From contig NZ_JACCCC010000001.1 in NCBI RefSeq assembly GCF_013408795.1, forward strand, positions 1,178,001-1,242,000: a stretch of 64,000 nucleotides of DNA. The letters run 5' to 3'. The notes below the pieces were generated by a model that was given only the letters and a program-made list of their open reading frames with translations, was not told where the DNA came from and ran no database searches. Origin of the DNA: Spinactinospora alkalitolerans. Lineage in GTDB: Bacteria; Actinomycetota; Actinomycetes; Streptosporangiales; Streptosporangiaceae. The position numbers and the translations under genes were made by a program. Positions 2,983-64,000 of this stretch are shown here, in pieces; position 1 is the stretch's first letter, and each line of letters begins with the position of its first letter.

Positions 2983-2990
2983 CGCGCACC

Positions 2991-3515: not shown

Positions 3516-3552
3516 CGGCAGGCACCGTGCGAGCACGGCGCCGGCCGTCACC
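3511..3552. terminator. Long imperfect hairpin, bidirectional terminator
   Basis: The 9-nt arms GGTGACGGC (3511-3519) and GCCGTCACC (3544-3552) are perfect complements. The inner segments GGC/GCC and CCGTGC/GCACGG also pair, giving 18 of 20 base pairs around a 2-nt loop. It sits between convergent genes (FBP-like plus, hyuB minus) and even covers the plus-strand stop codon. There is no T-tract, as is common in high-GC actinobacteria. Confidence 0.7.
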
Positions 3553-3582
3553 GCCGCCCGCCGCGGGCGCGGTGCGGCCCGG

Positions 3583-32175: not shown

Positions 32176-32390
32176 GGCTGAGACTCCTCCTGGCTGTCGA
32201 CGGCTCGATGCTGTGCATGCCATGCACACATCTTGTCGGACTGGGGGCCGACTCGCTCTGTGGGCTTGCCATGGGCCCTGTCCGTGCATGCCGCCTCAGC
32301 GGAGAGTAATCGGAGCCCAACGGCCTCGAAGCGTCGGTGGGATCGGCGAGAATGGTTGGATCGGTTCCCCCTTCATCGCCGGGAGTGTCA

Positions 32391-40161: not shown

Positions 40162-40350
40162 GCACGGTCGCCGCGCCGCCCGATACTCCGGGCGCGCGAG
40201 CCGCGCAGAGGGAGCACAAGGGATTCGTCCGCCGCCGCGCCGTCGTCAGCCGGGTATAGCGTCGAACGCTCGAGACCACCCGGTGATCCGGGCGGTCGAC
40301 TCGGCGGAACATGATCCGCATCGGTGAACCAGCACAGGAGGAGCAGCACC

Positions 40351-47801: not shown

Positions 47802-50800
47802 TCAGCCGCCGATCAGCGCCTCCAGTACCTCCAGTGCGGTCCCACGCTGGAGCCGGTCGTGCACTGTCTGGTTTCGGTAGTTGCGCAGGCAGCCATAACA
47901 CGAGGTCTCATAGCCGCAGTCGCAGTCGCGCATACGCCGCATTGCTTCTGCTGCCACCAGGTCGAACGACTCCGCGATGCGCCGGGAACCGCCCGCGCCT
48001 CCCGGGACGGTATCAAAGATGACCAGCGTCGTTTCGCCCTCCGCACGGCGATACAGCGATCCTCCGATATCGTCCCGGCTGATCTCCAGAGCCGACGACG
48101 CCCCTTCGAGAAGCGCGTACAGCAGGGAGGACCGTGCGGTCTCCGGCATCGCGCCGCGCTCCAGACGGCCGTCGAAGGAGACCTCCACCAGGTCGGTCTG
48201 GTAGCGGTGAGCCAACGAGTACGGTGCCAACCGCCCGGTGCAGGTCTGGTTGCGGAACAGGTGGTCGTGCTCCTTCGGCGGGTCCCGATGCGCTGAGCCA
48301 CTCAGACCCCGACCGCATCGGTCGCAGATCAGGTAGCCCGCTCTCCCCACACCTTCGGAGACGGCGACGAGTTCACCGCGGCTACCGGACCGGCAGCGTA
48401 TGGTGCCGCCGTCTCGCATCGGCCACGCGAACTCGGAGGGGTCCGCCGCCAGCCTCAGCACATGGGTCGCCCCGATCCAACTGCGCACGGGCGGAGTCTC
48501 ACCCGCCTCACCGACCGACGAATCGGCGACGAATCCGAACTCCGGCACACAGTAGTGCTTCTGCACACCACGACGCTGGGCCCCGCACGAGGCGCAGACC
48601 GGATCGATCTTCTGGCTGCTCTCCTGGTAGTAGCCGCAGCTGTCGCACACCGCGTAGTACCTGGACAGCAGTTCCCGCCCGGGGAGGCGGTAGACACCGC
48701 CCGAGGTCCACCGCTTTCCGCCCGCGATGACCGAACTCCCCGGAGCGTACTCATAGATCGCCGAGGTCAGGTCCCGGGCGAGCTCCAGGTCACGCCCCTC
48801 TTGGGCGAAGTATGTGCGCAGTTCGACCGTGTCCACGGGAAACCCGTACTTGGGCAGCACGTTCTTGGTCGCGAGGTAGTTCAGCAGCGGCCGGTTCTTG
48901 ATCGTGTTGACGGTGCGGAGGAAACGGGCGGCCAAACCGTCCCTGCGCGCTTCGAACGCCTCCACCCGCTGGCGTTCGAAGTCCTGGACGTCCTCGGTGA
49001 TCTCGCGCCGTACGTCTTCGAGTAGCGCGCACAGGTCCTTGGCCCATTGGCCCGAGGCCAGACCGATCTCTTCGGCCACACTCGGTTCCAGAACCCGCGA
49101 CAGTGCCTCGGTGAGCTCGTCGGGGACCGAATCGAGATAGGCGGCGACACGCTCCACCGGCGCGGAGGAGCCGTCCTCGCCCGGCAGGAAGAATGCTCCA
49201 GCGGTCGTCCACGTCTCCACCGGACTGTGGTACCGCAGGAACGCGGCGAGTGCGACCGAGTGCGCGTGCCGGCGGTCGATCCGCTCGTTGCCCAGAGGGA
49301 CGAAGGGCGCGCGCACCGCTCCGGCGATCATCTCCCGTGGATCCTGATAGCGGAAGAGGTCGTGGGCGCGTCGCCGGGCGTAGGTCACCGCCAACGCCGC
49401 CGAGGACGCCCGGCGTCCGGCGCGACCCGCCCGCTGCACGTAGTTGGCTGTGGTCGGCGGCATGTTGCGCAGCAGCACCGACTGCAGCTCACCGACGTCG
49501 ACACCCAACTCGAACGTCGTGGAGCAGGACAGGGCGTTGACGTCGCCCCTGATGAACTCCTGCTGGATCTCGGCCGCCCGTTGATTGGACCATTGGGCGG
49601 TGTGCTCCATCGCTCGCAGCCGCACGGGGGACAGGCCGCGATACAGCCGACGGTAGTGGTCCTCGTCCTGCTCGGGAGCCGGAGCCGTGTAGCGGACCAG
49701 GGCTCCTTCGCAGTTGATGGTCTGGCACACGCCGCGTACGGAGACCGGCGCGAACCTCTTGCACCGGTCGCACCGGTAGAGCCGTGTTTCGGCCGTCACC
49801 GGCTCCGGCACGAGGTAGGTGAAGTCCACTTGGTAGACGAGGCCACTGCGATGGTCGCGGCCACCCACCAGCCACCCGTCCCTGGTGTCGCGGAGGAACC
49901 GCCAGCACTGTTGGAGTACCGTCGTCGGTTCGACCGAAGCACCGAGGGTCTTCAGCAGGCGACGTATGTAGTTCAGTCGGCGGTTGTCCCCCTTCGTCGG
50001 CATCCAGCTCAGGACTTTGCGCGCACGGTCGGCACCCGACTCGCGCGCGTACACCGGGCCGAGCCGGGGAGCGAAGATCTCATCGCGCGGATCGACGTTC
50101 TCCGGCATGGTCAGGGCGCCCTGTTGCCGGAGGGTACGGACGAGTTCACTCAGCAGGTCCCAGGTCTCCATGGCATCGAGGCCGAGTTCGGCTCCGATAC
50201 CGCTCGCGGGCGGGGCCTCCTCCGGCCGATCCATACCGACCCTGAGCAGTCCGCGCCCTTCGAGGGACTGCCGCTCATCGGTGGCGACCAGCTCCCGCAT
50301 GACCCACCGGGCGGCTTGTTTGGCCCGGTCCTGTCGGGAGGTTCGCCTCCGGAAGAGTCCGGCCTTGGCCGCGGCGGTGGTGGTGTGCTCGATGAGATCG
50401 TCGGTCCAGAACTCGTTCCCCGGGGTGTGGCCGGCGTGCAGCCCGGCCAGGATGAGGCTGCGGTGCTGAACCTTCTGGTAGGTGGATTCCAGATAGGGGG
50501 CGAAGAACGCGGCGTCCTGCCGGCTGTCGCTGAACATCAGGAGCTTGCGCCCGCCTCCCGGACGGTCGGCCACCGTCGTGTCCGCGTCTTCGGGCAGAGC
50601 CTGGTACAGAGCCGTGGCGATGACCGCCGCGGCGGCATCATTGCCGCTCTCGAAGCGCCGGATGATGTTGGTCGATCGAGCACCGCATCCGCGGCAGCCG
50701 CTGACGCCTGCGTTCCCCGAGCGCATGGCCCATACCCGACGCAGGCGCTTCCCCGCGCACGAGGCGGCGCACCGTACGACCGGCGTCTTGCCCAGCGCGC

Positions 50801-52478
50801 CGCACGACACGCACAGGTGGTATTCCATGCTTCTCACGGCCTGCTGCGGCGGCTCCAGCGTGTCGTCATCGTCATCGACGATCTCCGCCTCACCGCCGAG
50901 ATTCAGCCACTGGGGGCGTTCCTGCAGTCCATTCTGCGGTCGGAAGAGGGATGCGCCCTCCTCTGGTCTGACCGTTCCCACCAGGTAAACGTCGCCGCAA
51001 CGTTGGCAGGACCCGAACTCGAACACCGCCGCGGAGCAATCAGGACAGATTTCATGGCGGGCCAGCGCCACATGCGGTCCAGACTCCGAGAGGCAGGTGA
51101 AGGCACCCTCCGATGCCCGCGCGAACAGGTGGTAACGCGCCGACAGCAGCGGTGTTCCCTCGTCATCGTGGATCCGGCTGCCCAATGCCACCAGTGCGGC
51201 TACGGTGCGTACCTGCTGGGTCTCGTCCAAGGCGGGATCGGCGTCGGGGACCTCGTAGAACAGCCGCTGCGCGACATCCTGGAGGGTTCGCGGGCCGTCA
51301 TTCTCCAGCAGCGTACGCATGGCCGCCATGCGGCGCTCCTGAGCGAGAACGGAGAAGGCCGACCGCGCCTGCCGACCGTGCCGGCCCGCGGCGACCAGCA
51401 ACTGCTCTTCCGGATTCCCGCTGTCAGCGATGCGAGCGTACTCTGCGGCGGCCAACGGCCCCCACGTGTGTTCAGGAGCGTCCTTGCGCCGGGCCGCACC
51501 GATCAGGTCCTGGCGGTCCGGATCGCCCTCCATCCATTCGAGAGGCTCGGTGAACAGCCGCTGCGCGAATGCGGTGGCCTTCTCCCCGTCGTCGCCGACC
51601 GTCGCGCTGGTGGCGATGCACTGCAGCGCTGTGCCGGGGGCGACCCTGTCGCGTAGCCGGCGCAGCAGCATCGCGACCTCCGCGGCCTTGGCGCCGTCGT
51701 AGACGTGCGCCTCGTCAAGCGCAATGAAGCGCCAGTGGCCCGCGTGCTCCCCCTCGAAGAGGTCGAGGTCAGCAGGGCGCAGCAGCAGGTACTCCAGCAT
51801 CGCGTAATTGGTGAGCAGCAGGTGAGGAGGGGTCTTGCGCATCTCCACCCGGCTGATGAGCTCGTTTTCCAACAGCGGTTGATCGGGATGGAGGGAGCGG
51901 AACTCCTCCCGGGCCCTGTCGGGACGTTCGTGCGTGTCACCCGTGTAGCGGCCGAAGGTGATGTGGGGTGTGTCCTTCAGCAGCAGACGCAGCCGCTTGA
52001 GCTGGTCGTTGGCCAGGGCGTTCATCGGGTACAGCAGGATCGCGCGGACGCCGGGACCCAGCTCGCCCGCATCGTGCTGGCGGGACAGCTCGTTGAGGAT
52101 GGGCAGCAGGAAGCTTTCCGTCTTGCCCGATCCGGTCCCGGTCGCCACGACGAGGTTGCGGCCCCTGGCGGCCTTGCGGATCGCGTGCTCCTGATGCAGG
52201 TACAGCGGTCGATCACCGGGAAGCTCCTCGCTGAAGAGCCGTGCGAAGCCGGGATGCAGAACTTCCTCATCGATGAGCTGACGCAGTGTGGCACCGGTCA
52301 GATAAGGCGGAGTGGCCTCCAGAAAGGGCCCCTTGCTCAGCAGCGCGCTCGTGGACACCTGGTGGTCCAGAGCCTGTGCGATGGCGGGATCGCGGACAGG
52401 CAGCAGGGAGCGCAGATAGCGGCGGTAGGTGGTGGTGATCAACTCGCTGGTCGCGAGGGTGTCCAAGGGAACGGTCAA
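47802..52478 (-). CDS. DEAD/DEAH-box helicase with zinc ribbons and C-terminal DUF1998
   Basis: 1558 aa. Helicase motifs: VVATGTGSGKTESF (about 113-126), LDEAHVYDG, TSATVGDD, SCSTTFELGVDVG, YVQRAGRAGRR. Several Cys pairs form zinc ribbons (CPDCSAAVF, CDRCKRF, CDSCGYYQ, CDRCGRG), and the C-terminus CDCGYETSCYGCLRNYRNQ is the DUF1998 signature. Proteins of this type act in defence (Druantia DruE-like, DISARM DrmA/DrmB-like) and DNA repair. TTG 52478 has AAGGAG upstream and overlaps the stop of the 1135-aa gene (TTGA), so the pair is coupled. I cannot match it to one named system. Confidence 0.9.
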   Translation of the reverse strand: MTVPLDTLATSELITTTYRRYLRSLLPVRDPAIAQALDHQVSTSALLSKGPFLEATPPYLTGATLRQLIDEEVLHPGFARLFSEELPGDRPLYLHQEHAIRKAARGRNLVVATGTGSGKTESFLLPILNELSRQHDAGELGPGVRAILLYPMNALANDQLKRLRLLLKDTPHITFGRYTGDTHERPDRAREEFRSLHPDQPLLENELISRVEMRKTPPHLLLTNYAMLEYLLLRPADLDLFEGEHAGHWRFIALDEAHVYDGAKAAEVAMLLRRLRDRVAPGTALQCIATSATVGDDGEKATAFAQRLFTEPLEWMEGDPDRQDLIGAARRKDAPEHTWGPLAAAEYARIADSGNPEEQLLVAAGRHGRQARSAFSVLAQERRMAAMRTLLENDGPRTLQDVAQRLFYEVPDADPALDETQQVRTVAALVALGSRIHDDEGTPLLSARYHLFARASEGAFTCLSESGPHVALARHEICPDCSAAVFEFGSCQRCGDVYLVGTVRPEEGASLFRPQNGLQERPQWLNLGGEAEIVDDDDDTLEPPQQAVRSMEYHLCVSCGALGKTPVVRCAASCAGKRLRRVWAMRSGNAGVSGCRGCGARSTNIIRRFESGNDAAAAVIATALYQALPEDADTTVADRPGGGRKLLMFSDSRQDAAFFAPYLESTYQKVQHRSLILAGLHAGHTPGNEFWTDDLIEHTTTAAAKAGLFRRRTSRQDRAKQAARWVMRELVATDERQSLEGRGLLRVGMDRPEEAPPASGIGAELGLDAMETWDLLSELVRTLRQQGALTMPENVDPRDEIFAPRLGPVYARESGADRARKVLSWMPTKGDNRRLNYIRRLLKTLGASVEPTTVLQQCWRFLRDTRDGWLVGGRDHRSGLVYQVDFTYLVPEPVTAETRLYRCDRCKRFAPVSVRGVCQTINCEGALVRYTAPAPEQDEDHYRRLYRGLSPVRLRAMEHTAQWSNQRAAEIQQEFIRGDVNALSCSTTFELGVDVGELQSVLLRNMPPTTANYVQRAGRAGRRASSAALAVTYARRRAHDLFRYQDPREMIAGAVRAPFVPLGNERIDRRHAHSVALAAFLRYHSPVETWTTAGAFFLPGEDGSSAPVERVAAYLDSVPDELTEALSRVLEPSVAEEIGLASGQWAKDLCALLEDVRREITEDVQDFERQRVEAFEARRDGLAARFLRTVNTIKNRPLLNYLATKNVLPKYGFPVDTVELRTYFAQEGRDLELARDLTSAIYEYAPGSSVIAGGKRWTSGGVYRLPGRELLSRYYAVCDSCGYYQESSQKIDPVCASCGAQRRGVQKHYCVPEFGFVADSSVGEAGETPPVRSWIGATHVLRLAADPSEFAWPMRDGGTIRCRSGSRGELVAVSEGVGRAGYLICDRCGRGLSGSAHRDPPKEHDHLFRNQTCTGRLAPYSLAHRYQTDLVEVSFDGRLERGAMPETARSSLLYALLEGASSALEISRDDIGGSLYRRAEGETTLVIFDTVPGGAGGSRRIAESFDLVAAEAMRRMRDCDCGYETSCYGCLRNYRNQTVHDRLQRGTALEVLEALIGG

Positions 52479-55400
52479 CGGCTCTCCTTGTGGATTTCGG
52501 TCCGCTCGGCTCCGGCGAGCGAGAGTTCGGCGAGCACCAGATCGGTGGCGACGAGTTCGGGAACGATTTCGGCGAGTTGCAGCCACCACTTTCCGGCCCT
52601 GTCCGCCACGTCCGCCGCTCCTGCCAGACAGCCGACCGGAAGGAAGTCGAAATCGGCGTCGCGCCGTGCGGCCAGTCGCGCGAGCAGTGCCAGCTCGATC
52701 GACAGGGCGGACAGCGCCTCAAGATCATCGGCGTGCGACGAAACTCCTCGACCATGTGTCAGAGCAAGTGCCGGTCCCCGGTAGACGGCGGGGAGCCGCG
52801 TGAACTCCCGGTCCAGCACCGTGACATTCGGCCTGGCCCAACGTCGTAGTCCGATGTAGGACTCGTCAGAGAAGACACGTTGAAGTCCTCGCGCGGCGCG
52901 CCGTCGGCTTGCGAGGGTGAGAAGAGGGCGCGGCAGGGCCGTCCCGTCGGCACGTGCTGAACGTGGCGGCGCAGAAGCGAGGGAAGAGACGGCATTCGTG
53001 TGCAGCACGGAGTCGCGAACGTGTGGATCTCCCTGTCCGCAGAGGATCGGCAGGGCAACCTCACCGCAGCACCGGACAACGCATTCGAGGAGCCGTTGTG
53101 CGTTCCCGGTGCACTCTGCCGGATCGACGGGCAGCCAGGGGAGCGTGCCACTGGTGACCACGGCCGCGATCGCGGGGGCTCTCCGCCACAGGAACACGGC
53201 GTCGTGGATGTCGACTTCGCCTCCTTGCGGGGCCGTTGCCAAGCCGCTGAGGACCAGCAGACGGGTGCTGTCGGCCGGATCGAGGTCGGCGTCGCAGTGT
53301 CCCAGCAGCGCGGTCTCCGGTTCCGCCCGCAGCGTTTGGATACATTCGTCGGCCAGACCACTGCGCATGCCCGGGTGTTGCAGCTTCGGGGTGTGAGCCT
53401 GCAGCGACCACAACCTGGCCGCGTCGGTCACCGTGAGACGGAGGTCCGCTGAGCCGAGCGCACCGCAGAGGAATTCGATCAGCCTTCTCTCCCCGGGATC
53501 GTGAGCCGTAGGAAGTCCCGGAGCCCGATAGGTCAGGCAGTGCGGCGATGACGGATCCGGCCACCGGGGCCAGTCCGGCTCACCCGCCCACGGATCGCTG
53601 ACGTTCAGCAGGAGACGTCCCGGCCCGGAATCGTGGAGTTCGGGCGGCAGGTCGATGACGCCATCGGCTCCGACCGCAGTGATCCACGGGACCCGCCATG
53701 GAGCATGGTCCAGGTAGCAGGCCGCGTCCACCTTCCCGGTGTTGACAAAGCCGCGCAGGTGTAGCCGGCCGTTCGCATAGGCCGCGCCGTGCGCCAGTCG
53801 CCGGGGGCGGACGTCGGCCACGGGGATGAGGTTCTCCCCGAACGGAAGCATCAGCCGGAGGGATCGATAGGTGCGTGCGGTGTCCACCAGTTGCGCCAGT
53901 GGATAACGTACCGGCGAATCGCCGCGCCGACGCGATGGGCGGATCTCCTGGACGGTCTCCCGCCCTGCGCGTGCCTCTAGGGGAGGAAGCGGATCCGCGC
54001 CGGGGAAATCGATCAGTAGATCCCCCTGGTCTGCGAGTGACTCGATCTCCAGCGGAAGGGGATGGGCGCTCCACTGCGATGTGCCGGCTGTTGTGCGCAG
54101 GCGTACATGCGGAGGTGTTACCACGATGTCTGCTTGAGCGCTGGTGCGGCTCCGCAACCGCAGAGAGCGAGACACCGTTTCGGGAGTGAACGTCAGTCGA
54201 CCAGGTTCGGCTCGGATACCCGCGGGGACGGAGAGTTCGGCTCGTCCCTCGGCGGGGCCCTCAGGTCGCGGCCTGCGGACCTCAGGGCTGTAGGTGATGT
54301 CCAGACCTTCGGCGACGGTGAACAAGGTCTGTGTTCCCCGGCTTCTCTGACCACGCACCGTGACATGGAAGGCTCCGAGGACAGGACGGGGCAGCTCGGC
54401 GAGAGGGCTCACGCTGCCGTCTCCATCGGCGGTGAAAGCGGTGAGGAGCTGATGCGTGTCGTTCCTGATCTCAATGGCCCAGGCAGCCTTTGACGAGGGA
54501 AGCCAGACCTCTGGCAGCGTGCTGAAGACCGGTCGCCCCGCATGGTCGGCGGCACCTGTGAGTGCCGGACCGTATTCCCAACGAGGGCGCGGACGCTGAG
54601 AGGTGAATCGGGAAGGTGAGCCTTCCAGCGCAATCCATCGCGCCTTGCCCAGGTCGATCTGGGTCAGACACCAGCCTTCCCAGCCGAACGGCGGGTCCGC
54701 CTCGGCCAGAGACCGAGGCGAAGCGGTGTCCGCCTTCAGACGCCTGCCGTCCGGATGCAGAATCCATACCAGGGCATTGGGAAGGGGGGTGCCAGAGGGG
54801 ATGAACGCCCCACTGTCAGCCTCAAAGACCAGGAGCGGGTTCGCGGAGTCGACCAGTGTCAACTCCTCCGGAGAGTGGAGACCGTCCAGGGGGGAGACCA
54901 TGATGACGCCCGCCGGGCCGGGAAGGGGGTGTGTGGTCTCGGGCCGCTCGTCGGACAGGTCCCATGGGTCCGCGCTTTCGACTGTGGCGCTGACGCCGTC
55001 GATCTCCACCTGCCATTGCGGAACGGCAACCAGTTCGTCCGGATCGATCGGAAGGACGAGATGGACTCCGAGGTCGTATGGGGAAAGCCGGATGTGGGGA
55101 TGGAGGAGTCGCGCTCTCGCCGGATCAGCCTCCTGGTTCTTGTGAGAGCGGTCGAGAACCTGGCGCGCAGGGGACAGGAAACGCTGAGGGAGTCCGACCT
55201 CCTCAGCGCTTGTCTGGTGGCCACTGCGCAGCCGGTCCAACAGCACGAGACAGCGATCGACGATTTCGAGGGCGTAGTCCGAATCCGATCTGATGAAATC
55301 CTGGGCGGGGAGAGCTAGAGCGTTGAGCCGGTGCTCTCCTGCGAGCGCCCAAGAGCGGAAGGACTCCGCGTCCATATTCACTTCCCGGGCGTCACGCTCG

Positions 55401-55882
55401 ATGAGTAGCGTAAAGAAGTCCTTCAAGCAGTGGCTCGGCATTCCCGCGTGTGCGAGAATTGGGCCGTAATAGCGGCCGCTGCGCTGTGCTCTTTGCTGCT
55501 TGCCGAGAGCTCTGAGTGAATCGAGGAAGGCATCTCCCCAGATCTCTCTGTCTTTCTGCCGATGTGATATTCCGGTCGCGCTCCAGAAGGCGCTCCAGTA
55601 TTCACCGTGGCCTTCGGCGCTGTAGTGTTCGGTCGCCAGCCCCGCCATAGTTCCGGCCACGCACGCCGGAAACCCGCTGAGAGTCCGGGAAGCGCTGCGC
55701 TCTCCTTCCCGGTCCAGTTTCCGATGGAACAGGCTCCCCAGAGAGCGTGCTGTCTCGGCCACCTCGTCGGGGGCCAGCTCGGCCTCGGCGATGATGGAGA
55801 CGGGAGCGATCCTGCCGCGCCAATCTTCCTCGCGTATGCGGAGTATTCCAAGGATGTCCGCCCACGGCTTCTCCTGGGGCAA
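52475..55882 (-). CDS. Large hypothetical protein coupled to the DUF1998 helicase
   Basis: 1135 aa, TTG start at 55882 with GGGGAG upstream. No family is recognised. Residues 1-280 are helical; about 280-760 look beta-rich, with repeated strand-turn patterns such as WQVEIDGVSATV, FHVTVRGQRSRGTQTLFTV and LTFTPETVSRSLRLRS, like sandwich domains; the C-terminal 370 residues are mixed. No catalytic motif, signal peptide or membrane segment is seen. The TTGA overlap with the helicase implies a partner, perhaps a substrate-recognition or scaffolding subunit. Confidence 0.8.
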   Translation of the reverse strand: MPQEKPWADILGILRIREEDWRGRIAPVSIIAEAELAPDEVAETARSLGSLFHRKLDREGERSASRTLSGFPACVAGTMAGLATEHYSAEGHGEYWSAFWSATGISHRQKDREIWGDAFLDSLRALGKQQRAQRSGRYYGPILAHAGMPSHCLKDFFTLLIERDAREVNMDAESFRSWALAGEHRLNALALPAQDFIRSDSDYALEIVDRCLVLLDRLRSGHQTSAEEVGLPQRFLSPARQVLDRSHKNQEADPARARLLHPHIRLSPYDLGVHLVLPIDPDELVAVPQWQVEIDGVSATVESADPWDLSDERPETTHPLPGPAGVIMVSPLDGLHSPEELTLVDSANPLLVFEADSGAFIPSGTPLPNALVWILHPDGRRLKADTASPRSLAEADPPFGWEGWCLTQIDLGKARWIALEGSPSRFTSQRPRPRWEYGPALTGAADHAGRPVFSTLPEVWLPSSKAAWAIEIRNDTHQLLTAFTADGDGSVSPLAELPRPVLGAFHVTVRGQRSRGTQTLFTVAEGLDITYSPEVRRPRPEGPAEGRAELSVPAGIRAEPGRLTFTPETVSRSLRLRSRTSAQADIVVTPPHVRLRTTAGTSQWSAHPLPLEIESLADQGDLLIDFPGADPLPPLEARAGRETVQEIRPSRRRGDSPVRYPLAQLVDTARTYRSLRLMLPFGENLIPVADVRPRRLAHGAAYANGRLHLRGFVNTGKVDAACYLDHAPWRVPWITAVGADGVIDLPPELHDSGPGRLLLNVSDPWAGEPDWPRWPDPSSPHCLTYRAPGLPTAHDPGERRLIEFLCGALGSADLRLTVTDAARLWSLQAHTPKLQHPGMRSGLADECIQTLRAEPETALLGHCDADLDPADSTRLLVLSGLATAPQGGEVDIHDAVFLWRRAPAIAAVVTSGTLPWLPVDPAECTGNAQRLLECVVRCCGEVALPILCGQGDPHVRDSVLHTNAVSSLASAPPRSARADGTALPRPLLTLASRRRAARGLQRVFSDESYIGLRRWARPNVTVLDREFTRLPAVYRGPALALTHGRGVSSHADDLEALSALSIELALLARLAARRDADFDFLPVGCLAGAADVADRAGKWWLQLAEIVPELVATDLVLAELSLAGAERTEIHKESR

Positions 55883-56445
55883 GCGCAGCTCCCCTCTCTA
55901 GAAGCGGCAACTTGGTAGTTTTGCATAGAAATGCAGGACCCACAATCCTTCACAGGCTATTTTGTCTTGCGCTCGGCATGTGAGTGGCAATAAGAGTGTC
56001 GGAGTGTGTGCGGATTGTGAGTGGGAAGGTGTCCAATTGCTACGGACCGCTGTCCGGTTACTACTTCCAGTGGCCTGGTAGGGCCCAACGGCTGTCTTCC
56101 TGACCGGAGTCGTCGGCTGGAGAACAGCCCTCCACGGCGACCGGGTGTTTTCGACGCAGGAGTGAATATAGCATGAAAACATCGTCAACGGCATGAAGTG
56201 TGGAAAGATGAGTTAACGATATGCATGCTGAGGCAAGCAGACATACCAGTGATCGAGGGGCGGCCGGACGCTGAGCGGCTCTCGTCCGGTCCCGTAGCGG
56301 TATGCCGTGCTCACCTCTGACGTTCTGCCTCGCCTCCGGCTGCGCGAGTGATCAGAGACTCTTCGTTGTTCACGAGTTCTAGAGTGCAAGCGAGCTGGGC
56401 GTTCAATCCCTATACGTATCGAGGCGCAAGGAACGCGAGTGTTCT
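55883..56445. other. 563-nt divergent intergenic/regulatory region
   Basis: No gene is supported here. The region is AT-richer than its flanks and separates the minus-strand helicase pair from the plus-strand chaperone operon, so it should hold both promoters. The palindrome TGCAT-AGAA-ATGCA (55922-55935) lies about 45 nt before the 1135-aa gene and overlaps a loose TTGTGG-17-AAAACT promoter on the minus strand. Near the plus-strand start, TATGGT (56445-56450) could be a -10 for a leaderless transcript beginning at GTG 56458. Confidence 0.45.
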
Positions 56446-58074
56446 ATGGTTGCCATCGTGCAGGAGCCCCATCCCCCAAAACCGAATGGTCCGCGTTCTC
56501 GCCACGAGGCGGCCGTGCTCGCGGAGCGACAGCGACGGGCTCGCCTCAAGGGGGAGCGAAGGCGGACCGAGGCCGCCCGGATCTGGGCGGAGTTCGGTGT
56601 CGCCGTGGAGCGGGTCGATGCCTTGCGTGACATCGTCGCCACTGTGGTCTCCGCGAGCGGCGAGCCAGATGAGGCAGTAGTGCTGCGACGCCTTCTCGAC
56701 GGTGCGCCCAGTGAGGGTGGGCCACGGGAACTGAGGCGGCTCCTTCGCGCGATGCCTCCCCTTGCCGCCATCCCGCATATCGCGGATCTTTATGCGATCG
56801 GACTCCCCATGGTGGCCGGAGTCGGAGCGCAGGCCGCTCTGCTGGCTGCCGCCGGCTCGGCGACTCCGGACGGTCTCGCGTCGGTCGATTCGGACTCTCC
56901 CGCGTGGCGGCTCTGGCGGGACGTCCTGCTCGTGCGGCACGGGTCGGTGCCGATGGACCCGGCCGGCTTCACACGAGCGGCGCCGCTCGCAGCCGTCGAT
57001 GACTACCTCGACAACGGCGGAGAATCCGTGGCACGGCATTGGTCGCAAAGGGAAGCCGCCGAGCGGGTCTACCTCCTGGCCCGTGTCGATCCACACGAGC
57101 TCACCGAGGCAGATCTACTGGACCTCGAGTGGGACGATGAGATCTGGCGCAGGCGGATGATCGACGCGGCCCCGCAGCCTCCACCCGAGGACGCACCCGA
57201 ACTCACGCGGCTCCTCTACGCGGTCGGCGCCGGAGACGCCGATGCTCTGGCGCAGGCCGCGCACATGCTCCCCGACGAGAAAGCGGAGATGATCGGGCGC
57301 GTGCTCGACTCCCCGGCGCACCTGGACACATGGCCTGAGGAACTCGTCCGCGACCCCGGGATGTGGCCGGCCCTGGGGCAGGTGTGGAAACCGGACGCTC
57401 AGGCGGTGCCGACAGACGACCACACCTCCGACTTCGTCTCCTGGTGCGGGTTGCGCGACGGCTACCACATGCTGCTCGACCTCGACGACGGAGCCGAAGA
57501 GGTGTTCGGCCTGTTCGAGCGGGCTCCGGACCCCAAAGTCAGGGAAGAGGCGGTGAATATGCAGGTCTACCTGCGGTTCCGGTTCTCCGCCCCGACCGAT
57601 TCCGGCGTGCTGTCGTGGGGTGAGTCCCGGTTGCGGAACCTGGGCAGAGGCAATCCGACGCTGGCCGCCAACCTTCGCTGGATCGCCGAGCGCAAGGCCG
57701 CTTCGGTCAATGACAGGGAACCGGTGCCCAACCCCTACCTCGAACTGGGGGTCCATCACGGCGCACCCGCTGCGGAATGGCAGTCCGCCTGGCGGGCACT
57801 GCGCCGGAAACTCCGCGGGAACACAGGAGACCTCTCCGACATCAACCTGGCACGTGACCGATTGAGGGACATGGAGACCGCCGGCGGTCTGGGGCAGCAC
57901 CGGTTCTTCCAGGTGCCGCTGGATCAGGGTTTCCTGCTTCCTCAACCGCGGATTCCCCGATGTCTTGTGCCGGAAGGCACGATCCTCACGCGCCGGACGC
58001 CTCCGCTGCGTGACGTGGATGTCGAGCGGTTGAGGGCGGTTGCTGCCGATGATCTTTTGACGAGGATGCAGTGA
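56446..58074 (+). CDS. Large protein with C-terminal J-like domain lacking HPD
   Basis: 542 aa. Residues 1-60 are basic and charged; about 60-420 are helical and unrecognised. Around 428-478, NPYLELGVHHGAPAAEWQSA then LRRKLRGNTGD and INLARDRL has the layout of a DnaJ J-domain (NPYxxLGV, helix II, helix III), but GNTGD stands where HPD should be. Its operon partners are a GrpE-like protein and an Hsp70-nuclease fusion, which supports a co-chaperone reading. Start ATG 56446; GTG 56458 is an alternative with a leaderless -10. The stop overlaps the next GTG (GTGA). Confidence 0.72.
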   Translation: MVAIVQEPHPPKPNGPRSRHEAAVLAERQRRARLKGERRRTEAARIWAEFGVAVERVDALRDIVATVVSASGEPDEAVVLRRLLDGAPSEGGPRELRRLLRAMPPLAAIPHIADLYAIGLPMVAGVGAQAALLAAAGSATPDGLASVDSDSPAWRLWRDVLLVRHGSVPMDPAGFTRAAPLAAVDDYLDNGGESVARHWSQREAAERVYLLARVDPHELTEADLLDLEWDDEIWRRRMIDAAPQPPPEDAPELTRLLYAVGAGDADALAQAAHMLPDEKAEMIGRVLDSPAHLDTWPEELVRDPGMWPALGQVWKPDAQAVPTDDHTSDFVSWCGLRDGYHMLLDLDDGAEEVFGLFERAPDPKVREEAVNMQVYLRFRFSAPTDSGVLSWGESRLRNLGRGNPTLAANLRWIAERKAASVNDREPVPNPYLELGVHHGAPAAEWQSAWRALRRKLRGNTGDLSDINLARDRLRDMETAGGLGQHRFFQVPLDQGFLLPQPRIPRCLVPEGTILTRRTPPLRDVDVERLRAVAADDLLTRMQ

Positions 58075-58715
58075 GCGAGGACCGACAAGTGCCCCAATCC
58101 GATCAAGAAATGCCGGAGCGCTCGGTCAGCGACCAAGACCTGACCGAGTTCCTGCTGGAGCTTCCTTCTTCCGAGCGCCGGAGGCTGATGACGCTCCTGG
58201 CCACCAGGGTCGAGCCACGCCGCATCGCCGAACCCCTCGCCGAACAGGTCCAGCAGCTCCTCGCCGACCTGGATGTGACCGCGCTGAGTAAGGCTGATGC
58301 CAAGGACACCGTGCGACGCGCGCTGGTGGAGACCATGAAGGCCCGTCAGACCCACCTGGCCCAGCTTGCCCAGCTCCGGCAACTATGTGATGAGTCGGAT
58401 CGCAGCGGGGCACTGGAGCGGAAGGTCCACGACTTCTGTCAGTCAGCAGGGCTGCTACAAGTCACGAATATGGACGATCCTTCCCTATTCCGAGTCGTCT
58501 CCGGAAGTGGAGAATACGCGGTGGTCGAGAGGCCAGCCTACGTTGACAGCGCTGATGGACGGCTGGTCATTGTCGGTGAGATCAGGTTGACCAGCATTCC
58601 TCCGGAGCGGAGTGGCGTGACGAAACGGCAGGGACAACGTCCATCAAATTTGCCGAAACGGGGCGGCGCGGGCAAGCGGCAGGGTGGCGGTAGGCAGCGG
58701 AAAGGACGCAAGTGA
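58071..58715 (+). CDS. GrpE-like protein with basic tail
   Basis: 214 aa. A long charged helix (about 20-115) with heptad-like spacing is followed by CQSAGLLQVTNMDDPSLFRV and YAVVERPAYVDSADGRLVIV (about 125-175). The latter resembles the beta domain of GrpE nucleotide-exchange factors (DP, RPA-V pattern). The last 30 residues are almost all Lys/Arg/Gly/Gln and could bind nucleic acid. Similarity is by pattern only. It overlaps both neighbours by GTGA, so the three genes are one translationally coupled unit with the Hsp70 gene. Confidence 0.65.
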   Translation: MSEDRQVPQSDQEMPERSVSDQDLTEFLLELPSSERRRLMTLLATRVEPRRIAEPLAEQVQQLLADLDVTALSKADAKDTVRRALVETMKARQTHLAQLAQLRQLCDESDRSGALERKVHDFCQSAGLLQVTNMDDPSLFRVVSGSGEYAVVERPAYVDSADGRLVIVGEIRLTSIPPERSGVTKRQGQRPSNLPKRGGAGKRQGGGRQRKGRK

Positions 58716-60895
58716 GCTTCGGAATCGACTTCGGGACCACCAACTCGGTGCTGGCGCACTGGGACGGAGAGGATGTCGAGGTCGTCTCTATGGAGGCGGG
58801 CAACCTCGATGACTGGAGCTATCCGGGATTCGACGAACTGTTCCCCTCTTATGTCGGGGCCAGCTCCACCCGGCCACGGCTGCTGTTCGGCTGGGAAGCC
58901 AAGCTTCGCTCGGAGCTCTCGGTTCCGGCGGCCAAACGGCTGCTCGGTGGAGACGCGATGATCCCCATCGCGAACCGGGAGTGGCCCGCCTCGACGGTCT
59001 CCGCCGGAATCCTGCACACCATCCGGGAGCGGGCGAGCACCGAACAGCTTCTCGACGTCGACAAGGCTGTGGTCACGGTCCCGGCGAATTCGGCCGGCGC
59101 GGCCCGCTACCGCACCCGCGCAGCCGCACGCGAAGCCGGTATCCGAGTGGACTCCCTGATCAACGAGCCGACGGCGGCCGCCGTCTACTACAAGTACCTG
59201 ATCCGGGAGGAAGGCCCTGAGCGCATCCTCACCTTCGACTGGGGCGGTGGCACCATCGACGTCACCGTTCTGGAGGCGGTGGACGGGGTCTTCGAGGAGC
59301 AGACGTCGCGCGGAGTCGCCAAGCTGGGCGGACTCGAGGTCGATGCCCGGCTGGCCAAGCTGGTTCTGGGACGGATCAAGCAAGGCCCGCAGACCCCGGC
59401 GGAAGAAGCGGCGTTCGCCCGCGACATCGAATTGGCCAAGATCAGGCTGTCGTCAGAGGACATCGTCACCATCCCGACCCCTGACCGAGGCTCAAACGCC
59501 AGGGTATCCCGAGGCGAGCTGGAGAACGCGATCGCCGATGTCGTCCAGTCGGCCATCGAGCCGCTGCGTGCCTGCCTCGACGATCTGCGGATCACCCCCG
59601 AAGACATCGACGCGGTGCTGATGATCGGCGGTAGCAGCCAGATTCCCCTGGTCAGGTCGATGGTCGGCGACATCATGGGTGATCGGCTCGTCTCCGACGA
59701 TGTGTGCGATTCGCTCACCTCCGTCGCGCGGGGTGCGGCGATCGCGGCCGCCGTCATCGACGGGGAGATCGACATCGACCTGGCGGTCACCACCACCCAC
59801 GCGCTGGGCACGGCCTCCACCCGAAAGACCAAGAGTGAGAGAGTGCGCACGTTCAGTGAGATCATTCCGCGCAACGCTTCGCTGCCGCGCATCGAACACA
59901 AGCACTACACGCCCAACAGCGAAAACCAGCGCCGGATCAACCTGGAGATCTGGGAGGGCAACCCTGATGATCCCGTCGCACGGGAGCCGGATGCTGACAA
60001 CGATGGGAATGTCTGTCTGACCGAACTCGCGATCGATCTGCCTCGAACAGCCGGCTCCCAGGACAGCGGGTTCACGCTGACCTACGAATATGACGTGAGT
60101 GGAATCCTGCGCGTCAAGGCGGTCGCTGATCACGGCGGTACGGTTCTCATCGACAAGGAGATCAACGCCTTCGGTCTTTCCAGCACCGGGGTGGGGGTCA
60201 GCCGGAAGAGTCTGCACGACTTTCTGGAATTCGCTCCTGACCTGGGAAGCCGGGCCTTTCGTACCACGGACGACGACGGCGTGGTCCTGAACCAGGAGCA
60301 CTCTCCGGGCGCTGCTCCTCCAATGCGGGTGCCGGCCGCCGATCCCGGACAGGACACAGCACCCTCTCCCGCGGAGGTCGCCGCGCGGACGCGGCCGAAA
60401 GCGGAAGCAGAGACTCCTGCCTCCCCGCATCAGGATTCCGATGTGGTCGTGCAACCGGCGAATTTCGTCATCGACGGGTCGAACATCGCGTGGGGCAATG
60501 GGAATCGCGCCATGGGAGGGCGTCCCAGCTACGCTCGCCTCAAGAGCGCGGTCGCGGCTCTGCGGAAGAAGTATCCGAACGCGGACGCCCACGTGGTCGT
60601 CGACGCCAACTTCCGGCACCTGGTACCGGAAGACGAGTACGCCGAGGTCGACCGCGCTATTGCCGAGGGGGAGATCCACCGTGTGCCCGCGGGAACCGTG
60701 GGGGGAGCGGACGTCTTTATCCTCGATGTCGCCCAAGCCAAAGGGGCCACGATCGTCAGCAACGGCGGTTTTCGCCAGCACGAGGAATACCATCAGTGGC
60801 TTTTGGGGGACTCACGGCTTTTCGGTGCGCAGGAGATCGCCGATGTCTGGGTGTTCAGGGAACGCCGCCCCGCCGCTGCCCGCTCAGAACAGTGA
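58712..60895 (+). CDS. Hsp70-family chaperone fused to a C-terminal NYN/PIN ribonuclease domain
   Basis: 727 aa. The N-terminal Hsp70 ATPase domain has IDFGTTNSV (5-13), INEPTAAAVYY and FDWGGGTIDVTVLE, with VLMIGGSSQIPLV near 308; a beta-type substrate-binding region follows to about 500. After a Pro/Ala linker (about 530-575), residues 582-715 contain FVIDGSNIAWG (Asp588, Asn591), VVVDANFRH (Asp631), GADVFILDVA (Asp667, Asp672) and TIVSNGGFR, the acidic-residue pattern of NYN/Zc3h12a-like PIN ribonucleases. I infer a chaperone-gated RNase. GTG 58712 overlaps the previous stop. Normal DnaK has about 610 residues, so the nuclease is an addition replacing the lid. Confidence 0.85.
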   Translation: MSFGIDFGTTNSVLAHWDGEDVEVVSMEAGNLDDWSYPGFDELFPSYVGASSTRPRLLFGWEAKLRSELSVPAAKRLLGGDAMIPIANREWPASTVSAGILHTIRERASTEQLLDVDKAVVTVPANSAGAARYRTRAAAREAGIRVDSLINEPTAAAVYYKYLIREEGPERILTFDWGGGTIDVTVLEAVDGVFEEQTSRGVAKLGGLEVDARLAKLVLGRIKQGPQTPAEEAAFARDIELAKIRLSSEDIVTIPTPDRGSNARVSRGELENAIADVVQSAIEPLRACLDDLRITPEDIDAVLMIGGSSQIPLVRSMVGDIMGDRLVSDDVCDSLTSVARGAAIAAAVIDGEIDIDLAVTTTHALGTASTRKTKSERVRTFSEIIPRNASLPRIEHKHYTPNSENQRRINLEIWEGNPDDPVAREPDADNDGNVCLTELAIDLPRTAGSQDSGFTLTYEYDVSGILRVKAVADHGGTVLIDKEINAFGLSSTGVGVSRKSLHDFLEFAPDLGSRAFRTTDDDGVVLNQEHSPGAAPPMRVPAADPGQDTAPSPAEVAARTRPKAEAETPASPHQDSDVVVQPANFVIDGSNIAWGNGNRAMGGRPSYARLKSAVAALRKKYPNADAHVVVDANFRHLVPEDEYAEVDRAIAEGEIHRVPAGTVGGADVFILDVAQAKGATIVSNGGFRQHEEYHQWLLGDSRLFGAQEIADVWVFRERRPAAARSEQ

Positions 60896-61074
60896 GCGGC
60901 CCTCTTCGCCGATAAGGCCCTTATTCATGAATATGGACGGTAAGTTCTGGTATTTGTCGTAACGGTGGTGAATTTTCCCGGTGTCTTCAGGGCAGCGGCT
61001 CATCGGTTGCGGGCATGTGCCAGGATTCCACAGGAACCAGAGCGTAGTATTCTCACAGCGGCCGCGGCTGAGGT

Positions 61075-64000
61075 CTAATCAAGGGGTAGTTCCGTCTGCC
61101 CGAGTCTGCGGGGCGGTTTACGCAACCCAGGCTTGATGGGCAGGACACCGGCTGTGGTGAGGCCGTCCACGGTGACCAGCGGGCCGGAGAGGATCTCGTC
61201 CAAAAACTCGGCCTGGCGCGGTTCCAGCTCCACCAGCCGGGTGAGCACGGTGAGGAGCTCCAGCAGTTCGTCGGTGAAGCGCGGGGTCCAGCGTTCGGGG
61301 CGGATGTCGTCCAGCGGTGATCCGCGGCGCTTGTTGCGCGGATTGCGCTGACGGGAGGAGAACCACTTCTTGACCACCCGCATGCCGCCGACGTCGTAGT
61401 CCCACACTTCGGGGAGCACCGGGGAGATGACCCCGCCGCCCACGTACAGTCGCCGACCGCGGTCGCCGCTGTCGCTGTCGTGCCGGATCACGTCAGGCAT
61501 CGCGGTGGGCGAGTCGGGGATCTCGACGATCACTTCGGGACGGCGGTCCTTCGGCAGACGGGGCGGTCCCGGTGGCCGTCCGGCCGATGTGTCGGCGAAC
61601 CGCTCCCCGTAGGTGTGCAGCCAGATGACCTCGCGGCCGAGTTCGACGGCGCTTGCCCACATGGCCGGATCGCGGGTCAGTGGGACCCGAATGCCGGGAA
61701 CGGTCAGGTGACCGCGAAAGGCAGCGGTGTAGCCGGGGTGGGCGACGGTGGCGGCGATGTAGGCGATGAGGTCATCAGGGGAGACGGCGAGCTCCAGGCT
61801 CTGGGAGAGGAAGGGGAGCAGACCGCGTGCGAGGTTGGGGGAGAGCCCTTCGGGATCGCGGTAGAGGGGGAGGACCCGGCCGCCTCGGCCGTTGAAGCAG
61901 TGCACGTTGGGCACCAGCGAGCTGAACACCAGCCCTGGACCCGTGGCGAACGGGTGTGCGTGCTGCTCCACCGTGTAGATCTGTCGATCACCGCTGGCGT
62001 TCCAGAGCGAAAGGCGGAGCCGGTCCACACAACGCTCGTCGTTGAAGAGATACTGGCGATCGAAGGAACGGAAGGAAACGGGGGCGATCGGAGGGGGAGT
62101 GAGCGCTTTCTCCAAGGAGCCCAGTCGGGGCGCGGGTCTTTCGATCCATCGGCTCTGCGTGGCTTTGAAAAGACGGTTCTTGTCCTCAGGGGCCGCGGAT
62201 GCGAGTCGATTCCACCGCCGCAGCAGGGTTTTCCGGTCCGGGGCGTATACCCAGGTCCGATTCGGGTTCACGCCGGTCTGCCGCCACGGCAGCAGATCGT
62301 CCATGGCGGGGTGGGAACGCCAGAGCGACTCCTCCGGGACGAACGGTGAGGTCCACTCCGCCTCGCACTTCTGCCAGCGTGCGCCGTCCAACCGCAGTTC
62401 CGGATCACCGTCCAACGCACCGAACTTGGCCGCGCGCTCACCTTCCAGTCGAGTGTGCCAGACGCGTGCGGGTTCTCCCGGGCGCGGACGTCCGTACCGC
62501 GCGAAGATGCCGATGCAGACGGGCTGCTGCACGCCTCCGAAGATCCGGGTGCGTCCCGGCGGACGGTGTCCCTCCGGCGACAGGTCGATCACCCAGCCCT
62601 CGTCGGCGGTCGTGCGCAGGTAGCGCCGCATACCGGCGAACGCGCTCTGGGTCAGGTACGCGGACGTGCTGACGAAGGCCACGATTCCGCTCGGCTGCTC
62701 GGGGTGGGCGTCGAACACCTTCCAGGTGGCCCAGCGCCAGAAGTACGTGCCCACCGCCGACAGCTTGTATTCGAGTCGGCCGTTGCCGGATTCGCGGAAC
62801 TCGTCCATGGACGGCCTGGCGGTGATCGGGTCGGCGACCGGATCCGACCGGCGTGCCTCAAGCCACGGTGCGGGGTCCTGCTGCCTCGCATCCTTGATGT
62901 AGGGCGGATTCCCGATGACCACCATCACCGGGGTCGCCTTCTTAATCCGGTTCGCCTCGTCCCTGAAGCGGACGATCTCCTCGTAGCGCAGCCCGAACCG
63001 TTCATAGGCGTGATGCGGATCGTCGAGCGTGTTGACCAGGAAGCGCCGGTGCTCCTCGGGAACCTCGGTGCCGTACTGCTCCTTCAACTGCTGGTGCAGA
63101 CGCAGCTCGGCGACCGCGAACGGGGCGGTGCTGCGTTCGAAGCCGACCAGGCGATCGCGGTACAGCTCCTTCAGGTGGGTTCGGGCGTGCACCTCGCCGA
63201 ACGTGTCGCTCAGGGTTCCCGCGACGGAGTTCATCACCGAGGCGAGGAAGGTTCCCGTGCCCATCGCCGGGTCGACCGTGGTCACGGACTCGTCGGCCAG
63301 ACCGCGGTGCCGCGCCATACGGCTCTTGAGAACGTCGTCGACGAAGTCGGCCATGAATCGGGTGACCGGTTCGGGGGTGTAGTAGGAGCCGGTCTCCTTG
63401 CGGAGTTCGGGATCGTAGCGCGACAGGAACGTCTCGTACAGGTCGACGTAGGCGGTCTGCTCCCCACGCATCATGCGCTGCCAGTCGATCGGCTCCAGAA
63501 CGCGGATGAGAGTGGGGAGTATGGTCGATTCCTGCGCGGTGCGTGAACCGGTCAGAATGCCGAACGCCTCTCCGAGGAAGGGGTGGCGCTTGCCGAGGAG
63601 TTCGCTGATCTCATGGACGCTGCGGCCGCTGAACTGGGCACCGGACTCCCGCGCCAGGATCAGGGCGAAGGTGATGGTCTGGGCGTAGGCGTCGGCGAAG
63701 TCCCGTCCAGAGGCGAGTTGGGGGAACAGCAGTTGCCGCCATTCCTCGGCCAGTCGGGTGAACGGTCTGTCGCCGCCGTTGGCCCGCTCTTCGGCGATGA
63801 TCTCGGCCACCTCGTCGCGTAACTGCCGGCAGAGGTCGGCTGTTCGGCTGATGAGCTGGTCGAGGGTGTAGTTAGGTTCGGGTTCCCAGGAAAGAAAATC
63901 CCAGATCAGCCGCTCGAACTCCGCTCCTACGGCATGCTTCGGCCGCCGCCTGCCGAAGAGGCCGGAGATCTCAACGGTCGGTCCCTGCTGTACGCCGTAG
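61075..64000 (-). CDS. Type ISP-like adenine DNA methyltransferase/specificity protein (5' end outside window)
   Basis: At least 974 aa; the frame stays open to base 64000, so the N-terminus lies beyond the window. (GTG 63810 is an internal Val, since coding-like sequence such as EFERLIWDFLSWEPEPNYTL precedes it.) TGSYYTPEPVTRFM, SAM motif VDPAMGTGTF and catalytic VIGNPPYIKD identify an N6-adenine methyltransferase. The C-terminal 450 residues resemble the specificity region of type ISP restriction-modification enzymes. No nuclease or helicase part is in view. It is convergent with the Hsp70-nuclease gene. Confidence 0.85.
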   Translation of the reverse strand, partial: YGVQQGPTVEISGLFGRRRPKHAVGAEFERLIWDFLSWEPEPNYTLDQLISRTADLCRQLRDEVAEIIAEERANGGDRPFTRLAEEWRQLLFPQLASGRDFADAYAQTITFALILARESGAQFSGRSVHEISELLGKRHPFLGEAFGILTGSRTAQESTILPTLIRVLEPIDWQRMMRGEQTAYVDLYETFLSRYDPELRKETGSYYTPEPVTRFMADFVDDVLKSRMARHRGLADESVTTVDPAMGTGTFLASVMNSVAGTLSDTFGEVHARTHLKELYRDRLVGFERSTAPFAVAELRLHQQLKEQYGTEVPEEHRRFLVNTLDDPHHAYERFGLRYEEIVRFRDEANRIKKATPVMVVIGNPPYIKDARQQDPAPWLEARRSDPVADPITARPSMDEFRESGNGRLEYKLSAVGTYFWRWATWKVFDAHPEQPSGIVAFVSTSAYLTQSAFAGMRRYLRTTADEGWVIDLSPEGHRPPGRTRIFGGVQQPVCIGIFARYGRPRPGEPARVWHTRLEGERAAKFGALDGDPELRLDGARWQKCEAEWTSPFVPEESLWRSHPAMDDLLPWRQTGVNPNRTWVYAPDRKTLLRRWNRLASAAPEDKNRLFKATQSRWIERPAPRLGSLEKALTPPPIAPVSFRSFDRQYLFNDERCVDRLRLSLWNASGDRQIYTVEQHAHPFATGPGLVFSSLVPNVHCFNGRGGRVLPLYRDPEGLSPNLARGLLPFLSQSLELAVSPDDLIAYIAATVAHPGYTAAFRGHLTVPGIRVPLTRDPAMWASAVELGREVIWLHTYGERFADTSAGRPPGPPRLPKDRRPEVIVEIPDSPTAMPDVIRHDSDSGDRGRRLYVGGGVISPVLPEVWDYDVGGMRVVKKWFSSRQRNPRNKRRGSPLDDIRPERWTPRFTDELLELLTVLTRLVELEPRQAEFLDEILSGPLVTVDGLTTAGVLPIKPGLRKPPRRLGQTELPLD

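Follow-up and report, generated by a model that had tools for sequence, protein, structure and literature searches.

What is an Hsp70 chaperone doing on the same polypeptide as a ribonuclease (RNase)-type domain, next to antiphage defence genes? The question is raised by a gene in a 64,000-nucleotide stretch of the Spinactinospora alkalitolerans genome (contig NZ_JACCCC010000001.1, positions 1,178,001 to 1,242,000; the whole stretch is called the window here). A first-pass annotation, made from the letters of the sequence, had predicted an Hsp70 fused to an NYN/PIN domain. We confirmed that this fusion is real, as Pfam matches both domains on one open reading frame. The explanation that we favour, at a probability of about one half, is that the fusion serves as the effector at the end of a cassette of three genes, which would act as an infection-gated, client-clustered RNase arm that is optional in antiphage operons. 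The gene and its parts are:

58712..60895, + strand: open reading frame with a GTG start, encoding the Hsp70-NYN fusion protein of 727 amino acids (aa)
58712..60181, + strand: Hsp70 ATPase domain and the beta part of the substrate-binding domain, about residues 1-490
60182..60460, + strand: Pro/Ala-rich linker, residues 491-583
60461..60856, + strand: NYN/PIN (RNase_Zc3h12a-type) domain, residues 584-715

The Pfam HSP70 model matched with an E value of 7e-58 (best stretch, residues 81-473). The ATPase motifs, which we take to be those named phosphate 1, catalytic Lys, phosphate 2 and adenosine, had been called complete and are indeed intact in the window protein and 19 other cassette Hsp70s when aligned with the genome's own DnaK. 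That DnaK belongs to a separate DnaK-GrpE-DnaJ operon elsewhere in the genome, whose GrpE was recognised by position and by eye. A profile of the cassette Hsp70s matched DnaK structures. The interdomain linker is degenerate, reading DIDLAV in the window protein against the hydrophobic VLLLD of DnaK, from which all 20 cassette Hsp70s differ. The canonical C-terminal helical lid is missing, with the HSP70 model match stopping at position 486 of 599. In its place are the Pro/Ala-rich linker of about 93 residues and then the NYN domain. By its sequence, the Hsp70 part of the fusion is a member of the Hsp70 superfamily and not a canonical DnaK.

The Regnase/Zc3h12a-like domain predicted after the linker was recovered by Pfam as RNase_Zc3h12a (PF11977; residues 586-693, E 4.4e-7, 30.2 bits against a cut-off of 23). 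A family profile of 12 homologous domains (the window, ten named loci and G016, the degenerate L017 copy being excluded) matched the solved PIN domains of ZC3H12B, KHNYN, ZC3H12A and ZC3H12C (E 4.5e-6 to 1.3e-4). The window domain used as a single query matched no solved structure, and the weight is therefore carried by the family profile and by Pfam on its own. The cassette domain is thus homologous to the Regnase/ZC3H12A and KHNYN RNases, but differs from them in being fused to an Hsp70. KHNYN reportedly has an antiviral role. The standard NYN family (PF01936) was rejected as an assignment, the one match of that model in the genome lying elsewhere.

Five residues of the domain had been singled out in the first-pass annotation. 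Over 15 NYN copies, four of them hold: Asp588 is present in 15/15, and Asn591, Asp631 and Asp667 in 14/15 each. Asp672 is conserved in just 2/15 copies and was rejected as a catalytic site. On alignment to ZC3H12B, Asp588 occupies the Regnase D141 position and Asp667 the D226 position. At the D244 position, 13 of the 15 copies have Asp, the degenerate L017 copy has Glu and the window has Gly685. Asp588, Asp631, Asp667 and the D244-position Asp occur all together in 13/15 copies, as do the three D141-, D226- and D244-equivalents, so that acidic residues are kept in most homologues, as had been expected. In five pairs of related loci, the ratio of nonsynonymous to synonymous substitution rates (dN/dS) is 0.05-0.23 in the NYN domain, compared with 0.04-0.13 in the ATPase domain and 0.23-0.69 in the linker. 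These ratios indicate that the NYN domain is under purifying selection. The closest relative of the window copy is that of L104 (59% identity), which keeps the D244-position Asp; between these two NYN domains dN is 0.37 and dS is 2.3, near saturation, and the linkers are 36% identical.

The fusion gene is the last of three genes, its start overlapping the stop of the upstream gene by 4 nt, as GTGA. The other two members of the cassette are:

58071..58715, + strand: GrpE-like protein, 214 aa, upstream of the fusion gene (AlphaFold2 and Foldseek)
56446..58074, + strand: J-like helical protein, 542 aa (alignment of 14 homologues; AlphaFold2)
57718..57885, + strand: J-domain-like stretch of the latter (NPYLELGV, then two helices), without HPD, about residues 425-480

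The AlphaFold2 model of the 214-aa protein (pLDDT 74) has GrpE 1dkg_A as its top Foldseek match (probability 0.98, E 6.5e-3), and none of its Foldseek matches has an E value below 0.001. A second structure comparison (VIA) gave Z scores of 7.0-7.1 to GrpE/GrpEL1, including 7.0 to 1dkg_B with a root-mean-square deviation of 3.3 over 107, but unrelated helical bundles tie with these. In hhalign, the score against the genome's own GrpE is 11.1, whereas the best of 30 column shuffles reached 7.8; the reported probability is 0.8%. The Pfam GrpE model matched none of 15 members, and the protein is therefore named 'GrpE-like' only. With moderate confidence, the model leans towards a GrpE-like fold (a long helix and a beta-wing).

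The J-like protein is all-helical in its AlphaFold2 model (pLDDT 84). Its C-terminal stretch scored 12.9 in hhalign against the two DnaJ proteins of the genome (best of 30 column shuffles 6.4; probability 1.4%). Pfam DnaJ matched neither the window protein nor three small stand-alone J-like proteins. A fold search with the whole model gave solenoids of the TPR and HEAT types; at rank 4 there was a weak match to the co-chaperone P58(IPK) (E 0.39). A second fold comparison had no J-domain entry among the rows shown, which does not exclude one. Named membership in the J-domain and GrpE families was dropped, there being no Pfam match and only chance-like results from profile searches of solved structures. 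Identity between the window proteins and their cassette relatives is 24-28% for the J-like protein, 18-27% for the GrpE-like protein and 39-48% for the Hsp70. The first two are thus more diverged than the Hsp70, as expected of adaptors.

How widespread is this arrangement? A collection of 84,980 species genomes was scanned with three cassette Hsp70s, and 80 of 378 confirmed relatives were kept. Among these 80 loci, 18 (L009-L026) were called cassettes, L027-L030 showed only the Hsp70 in blastp, and L031-L088 are more distant Hsp70s whose neighbourhoods were outside the survey. Adding the window, G016, G132 and the six loci that a J-like profile search of 394 genomes contributed, we count at least 27 distinct cassettes, all with different Hsp70 sequences and all in Actinomycetota where named. 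L107 and L023 are the same contig and count as one; the short stretches L001-L006, L089-L100, L108-L113 and L117-L120, mostly loci already counted, were excluded from the counts.

The gene order is J-like, GrpE-like and then Hsp70 as the last gene. All three genes are on one strand in 27/27 loci, and the stop of the GrpE-like gene overlaps the Hsp70 start by 4 nt in 24/27. In these structure counts, the Hsp70 start was set four residues before the GIDFGT motif, loci in profiles A5, A6 and A8 (A8 is NYN-only) match by construction, and the J match counted for L023 is a long separate helical protein, a small J-like protein lying downstream on the same strand. The NYN domain is carried by 15 of the 27 cassettes. 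Within a sample of 394 genomes of the same class, the J-like profile matched in 10; the NYN profile matched in 5, with 7 matches, of which 4 are fused to Hsp70. Three stand-alone NYN relatives without an Hsp70 (L121, L122 and L123) have a C-terminal half that looks by eye like a zinc ribbon plus FHA, and two of them share a contig with the G016 cassette.

The first-pass annotation had also named phage assembly as an example of a trigger. A survey of the cassette neighbours supports a defence context: a recognised defence gene is the direct neighbour of 16 of the 27 cassettes (window, L007, L008, L009, L012, L013, L016, L020, L021, L022, L024, L025, L026, L102, L103 and L104). This count was pooled by hand from locus comparisons; six of the 16 belong to one Druantia IV group, and L012 and L025 rest on a weak GajB-like match. 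The genes next to the cassette in the window are:

52475..55882, - strand: 1135-aa helicase partner ('DRUH-like', by position), no Pfam or PADLOC hit
47802..52589, - strand: DruE/YprA-type helicase of 1595 aa with MZB (PADLOC DruE3, E 1.8e-180; Pfam DEAD, Helicase_C, MZB)
61075..63999, - strand: type ISP / type IIG restriction-modification enzyme, directly next to the cassette, its reading frame open at the edge of the window (Pfam Type_ISP_C, E 2.8e-72; PADLOC REase_MTase_IIG, E 3e-250)

A DruE helicase and its partner of about 1.1 thousand residues adjoin the cassette in the window, G016 and L013. L016 is a DISARM locus that reads DrmD, DrmMI, cassette, DrmA, DrmB. Druantia IV cassettes are found in L008 (PADLOC DruF and DruL) and, by similarity to L008, in L020-L022, L024, L102 and L103. 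LeoBC/LeoA-like GTPases adjoin the cassettes of L009 (PADLOC) and L026 (by similarity); the latter also adjoins a DrmMI-like protein. A UvrD-type helicase is the neighbour in L012 and, by similarity, in L025, and the nearest gene in L104 is a divergent AIPR/AbiU gene.

Some further loci deserve mention. L010 encodes a DruE-type helicase with an N-terminal protein kinase domain (382-6744, - strand), with one gene between helicase and cassette. In L017, where the Hsp70 with a decayed NYN domain lies at 10001-12046, a CHAT-NACHT-TPR gene starts 634 bp downstream, with a small open reading frame on the opposite strand between them. Proteins of about 570-660 aa are encoded upstream of the J-like gene in L014, L015 and L101 and are a possible partner; the L014 protein has one sub-cut-off Pfam hit and no PADLOC hit, that of L015 has neither, and that of L101 is 86% identical to the L015 protein.

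Related operons exist with and without the cassette. A DRUH-like match was found in 19 of 394 genomes, near full length in 12 and partial in seven. A J-like match is also present in G000, G016, G132 (where the DRUH-like match is partial and far away) and G283, and is lacking in 15 of the 19, or 9 of the 12 with a near-full-length match, if both draws of 394 are the same genomes. In all seven cassette-free stretches that were fetched, the DRUH-like gene is adjacent to or overlaps DruE. The cassette splits this pair in G016 and in L013 (Streptosporangium carneum). The window has an unbroken pair, with the cassette divergent beside it; in G283 both are present, with about 18 kb between pair and cassette.

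DISARM shows a similar pattern. The DrmA model matched in 46 of 296 genomes, of which only G000 and G261 are also in the J-like list, with DrmA far from the cassette. Among eight cassette-free DISARM loci, DrmMI and DrmA abut in four (L171-L174). In L173 they are 24 bp apart without a cassette, and the L173 DrmD, DrmMI, DrmA and DrmB are 63-67% identical to the L016 proteins. L169 has no DrmMI, and in L170 a fragment of DrmMI lies at the end of the contig, on the opposite strand. In L167 and L168 the DrmMI-DrmA junction, where L016 has the cassette, holds about 6 kb of other sequence; this site is possibly an insertion hot spot. Judged from these comparisons of gene order, the cassette is a portable accessory of defence operons and not one odd gene, since related operons lack it while elsewhere it splits them.

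The tree built from the Hsp70 part, with 27 rows plus 6 for the outgroup, has some long branches, about whose joins the tool warns. The window and L104 are sisters (100/100), as are the DISARM cassette of L016 and the DruE cassette of L013 (100/99), the latter pair implying movement of the cassette between systems. The system labels need 11 changes for 12 labels, which is the least possible. The tree alone is therefore no proof of repeated transfer, and the L013/L016 pair is the informative case. The NYN label needs two changes. L017, with its degenerate NYN domain, groups with the NYN-less Druantia IV cassettes (100/100), which would fit decay of the domain followed by loss, although gain and loss cannot be distinguished by counting changes on the tree. 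The cassettes with a split J-like gene (L018, L019, L023, L105 and L106) fall outside the main group and have no NYN domain. The collections searched gave no indication that phages or plasmids carry the cassette. No plasmid matched the window J-like protein at E values up to 1e-3, the query being divergent and of low reach, and none matched the L026 Hsp70-NYN protein at E values up to 1e-50. Of the phage records, 25 matched, none over 80% of the query, and the 20 listed match in the Hsp70 part only (25-30% identity); six viral contigs match solely within the Hsp70 part.

How might such a cassette work? The proposal builds on the fusion, the coupled genes, their placement in defence operons that also occur without them and the purifying selection on the NYN domain; we infer every step after client binding. 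The cassette would comprise a J-like adaptor, a GrpE-like exchange factor and an Hsp70 in which a Regnase-type NYN domain replaces the lid, and it would be an optional insert in DISARM, the DruE helicase pair, Druantia IV and other operons. The fast-diverging J-like protein would deliver to the Hsp70 a client produced on infection, either a phage protein or some activated component of the host system, and ATP hydrolysis would clamp it there. Several Hsp70-NYN molecules on one client would bring their NYN domains together, and RNA would be cut. This proximity step is proposed because the Regnase-1 PIN domain must dimerise for activity in vitro (PMC4772114). The cutting of RNA would slow cell and phage once DNA restriction has failed; this DNA-first, RNA-second order is an analogy drawn from a scheme proposed for the CoCoNuT systems (PMC11090510). 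The GrpE-like protein would then reset the Hsp70-NYN. Where the NYN domain is absent, as in the Druantia IV cassettes, or decayed, as in L017, the chaperone part alone may serve the host system.

A bolder reading, which we put forward tentatively as possible, makes the dedicated Hsp70 machine both sensor and clamp for a clustering-activated RNase of the Regnase/KHNYN type, with a non-canonical J-like adaptor supplying the clients that infection produces; together they would form a swappable second line in several unrelated DNA-targeting operons. If this were true, chaperone-gated RNA cleavage would be a way of sensing phage through client proteins, one cassette could be swapped between defence systems, and bacterial defence would be tied to two RNases that act in animal immunity, Regnase and KHNYN. 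The role of an Hsp70 in prokaryotic defence operons is directly testable, because operons that resemble each other closely exist with and without the cassette (L016 and L173; G016 and L013 compared with L160-L166). Taken as a whole, the first-pass interpretation, in which peptide or aggregate binding unleashes RNase activity and shuts down growth, is partly supported. The three-gene cassette inside defence operons, the 12 of 27 cassettes that lack an NYN domain and the loss of the D244-equivalent Asp in the window lay beyond its view.

Several observations weigh against the RNase-arm explanation. The NYN domain is missing from 12/27 cassettes, and that of L017 is decayed, with 19 changes in the 34 columns that are invariant in the 12 other intact copies; RNase activity is thus not needed everywhere. 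The window and L104 copies each differ at 4 of these columns, and in the window, whose domain is otherwise intact, one of the four is the D244-position Asp, replaced by Gly685. This Gly685 may be genuine or a sequencing error. At the Regnase D225 position, 14 copies have Ala or Gly (Ala in the window) and L017 has a gap. Regnase D141, D225, D226 and D244 are reported to be needed for Mg binding and activity (PMC8306088). As the window domain keeps the D141 and D226 equivalents and has Ala and Gly at D225 and D244, we class it as a homologous domain and not as a competent RNase. Its activity may be weakened or impaired, since the D244-equivalent Asp is missing and a D226N/D244N double mutant (DDNN) of Regnase is inactive (PMC4772114). 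The HPD motif is absent from all 14 aligned J-like proteins, which makes canonical stimulation of the cassette Hsp70 ATPase doubtful and is the reason why the 542-aa protein is not filed as a J-domain protein. The evidence behind the names J-like and GrpE-like, from profiles or models, is weak. Finally, 11 of the 27 loci (L010, L011, L014, L015, L017, L018, L019, L023, L101, L105 and L106) are without a recognised defence gene as direct neighbour, though not every neighbour of these 11 was scanned.

Some of these observations speak for the main rival, which we consider less likely. It casts the cassette as an assembly or remodelling chaperone for large host proteins (DruE, DrmA, DrmD and the DRUH-like protein), with the NYN domain as an RNA-binding or regulatory tail, or a trimmer of the host system's own transcript, and no cell-arresting effector. 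The persistence of the trio in the 12 loci without NYN, the decay in L017 and the missing catalytic-position Asp in the window are in its favour, as are the intact ATPase motifs and the very large multidomain proteins among the cassette neighbours. However, the host operons also occur without the cassette (the 15 of 19 DRUH-like genomes, or 9 of 12 near full length, that lack a J-like match), so that those systems do not need it, and the acidic residues of the NYN domain and the purifying selection on it persist in most NYN copies.

It is a good deal less probable that the cassette is a stand-alone defence system, a chaperone-sensed RNase that favours defence islands or lands in other operons. 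The AIPR/AbiU gene as nearest gene in L104, the stretch of about 18 kb that separates the DRUH-DruE pair from the J-like gene on that contig, and the scanned neighbours of L011, L014, L015 and L101, among which no host system was recognised, could be read in this way. Set against this is the same-strand placement within operons, with short gaps or overlaps, in the DISARM, DruE-pair, Druantia IV and L026-type loci. The last alternative, an ordinary stress chaperone lying near defence genes by chance, with an NYN domain of no immune role, would have the intact Hsp70 superfamily ATPase motifs, but is very improbable for a cassette that is rare (the J-like profile in 10/394 genomes), sits inside defence operons that also exist without it, and occurs in a genome with a separate DnaK-GrpE-DnaJ operon.

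Chaperone components in defence operons are known already. Among them the Hsp70-NYN cassette appears new: as the first-pass annotation had supposed, no description of the fusion or the cassette, and no measurement of its activity, was found in the Creative Commons-licensed literature of PubMed Central, a scope outside which lie subscription journals, most preprints and supplements. Among the closest parallels are the GAP1-N2 GTPase-centric systems (Kaur et al. 2020, PMC7159879), predicted conflict systems that likewise have HSP70, GrpE and J-protein genes and whose chaperone-bearing forms are reported mostly from actinobacteria and firmicutes. These are built on GAP1 and GTPases with FNIII proteins (DnaJ-FNIII), and 'NYN' does not appear in the main text. 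The partners of the cassette, in contrast, are DISARM, DruE helicases and others, and its Hsp70 carries an RNase-type domain. No GTPase or GAP1 gene was found among the five window neighbours scanned with Pfam; LeoA/LeoBC-like GTPases adjoin the cassettes of L009 and L026, as stated above.

The CoCoNuT/NxD McrBC systems also bring an Hsp70-like unit (a nucleotide-binding or substrate-binding domain, NBD/SBD, fused to McrB or McrC) into restriction-type defence, and CoCoNuT-related systems are reported to be co-encoded with Druantia III and BREX, with RNA targeting proposed (PMC11090510). Those units are described as having degenerate Walker A-like motifs and very weak ATP hydrolysis, whereas the cassette motifs are intact, and NYN, DnaJ and GrpE are not mentioned in the main text. 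Pfam gave no McrB or McrC hit in the fusion or its five scanned neighbours. Druantia, DISARM and other YprA-helicase systems are the hosts of the cassette, and consist of DruE or DrmA helicases with DruF/DruL, DrmB/DrmD/DrmMI or the 1.1-kaa partner; the cassette is an insert missing from the other Druantia and DISARM copies compared. The main text of a survey of YprA-helicase systems, its supplements lying outside the scope, contains no mention of Hsp70, chaperone or NYN (PMC12458937). Phage sensing by bNACHT25 is reported to require DnaJ (PMC12169576). There, as proposed for the cassette, a chaperone component ties the detection of phage protein to a bacterial immune response, but bNACHT25 uses the host's own DnaJ, whereas the cassette brings a dedicated Hsp70 machine of its own and, fused to it, a nuclease-type domain.

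The window is itself rich in defence genes: besides the cassette and the DruE pair, it holds BREX genes, two Menshen genes and the type IIG enzyme. A scan of 55700-61300 for promoters and terminators gave nothing exceeding shuffles, and no tRNA was found in the window. As to Druantia III, the window helicase is recognised as DruE (PADLOC DruE3). The 1135-aa gene has no PADLOC hit as DruH, though its relatives are paired with DruE in 7/7 cassette-free stretches; DruH is reported to be far more divergent than DruE (PMC13192584).

The BREX genes span 19399-46572 and include PglW (19399-23667), PglX (32337-36095), BrxC/PglY (36349-40161), PglZ (40324-43107), BrxD (43109-44446) and BrxHI (43822-46572). 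We take this set to be BREX type 2. Between PglW and PglX, on the - strand at 29832-32289, are the genes for NsnB and NsnA, which presumably constitute a Menshen system.

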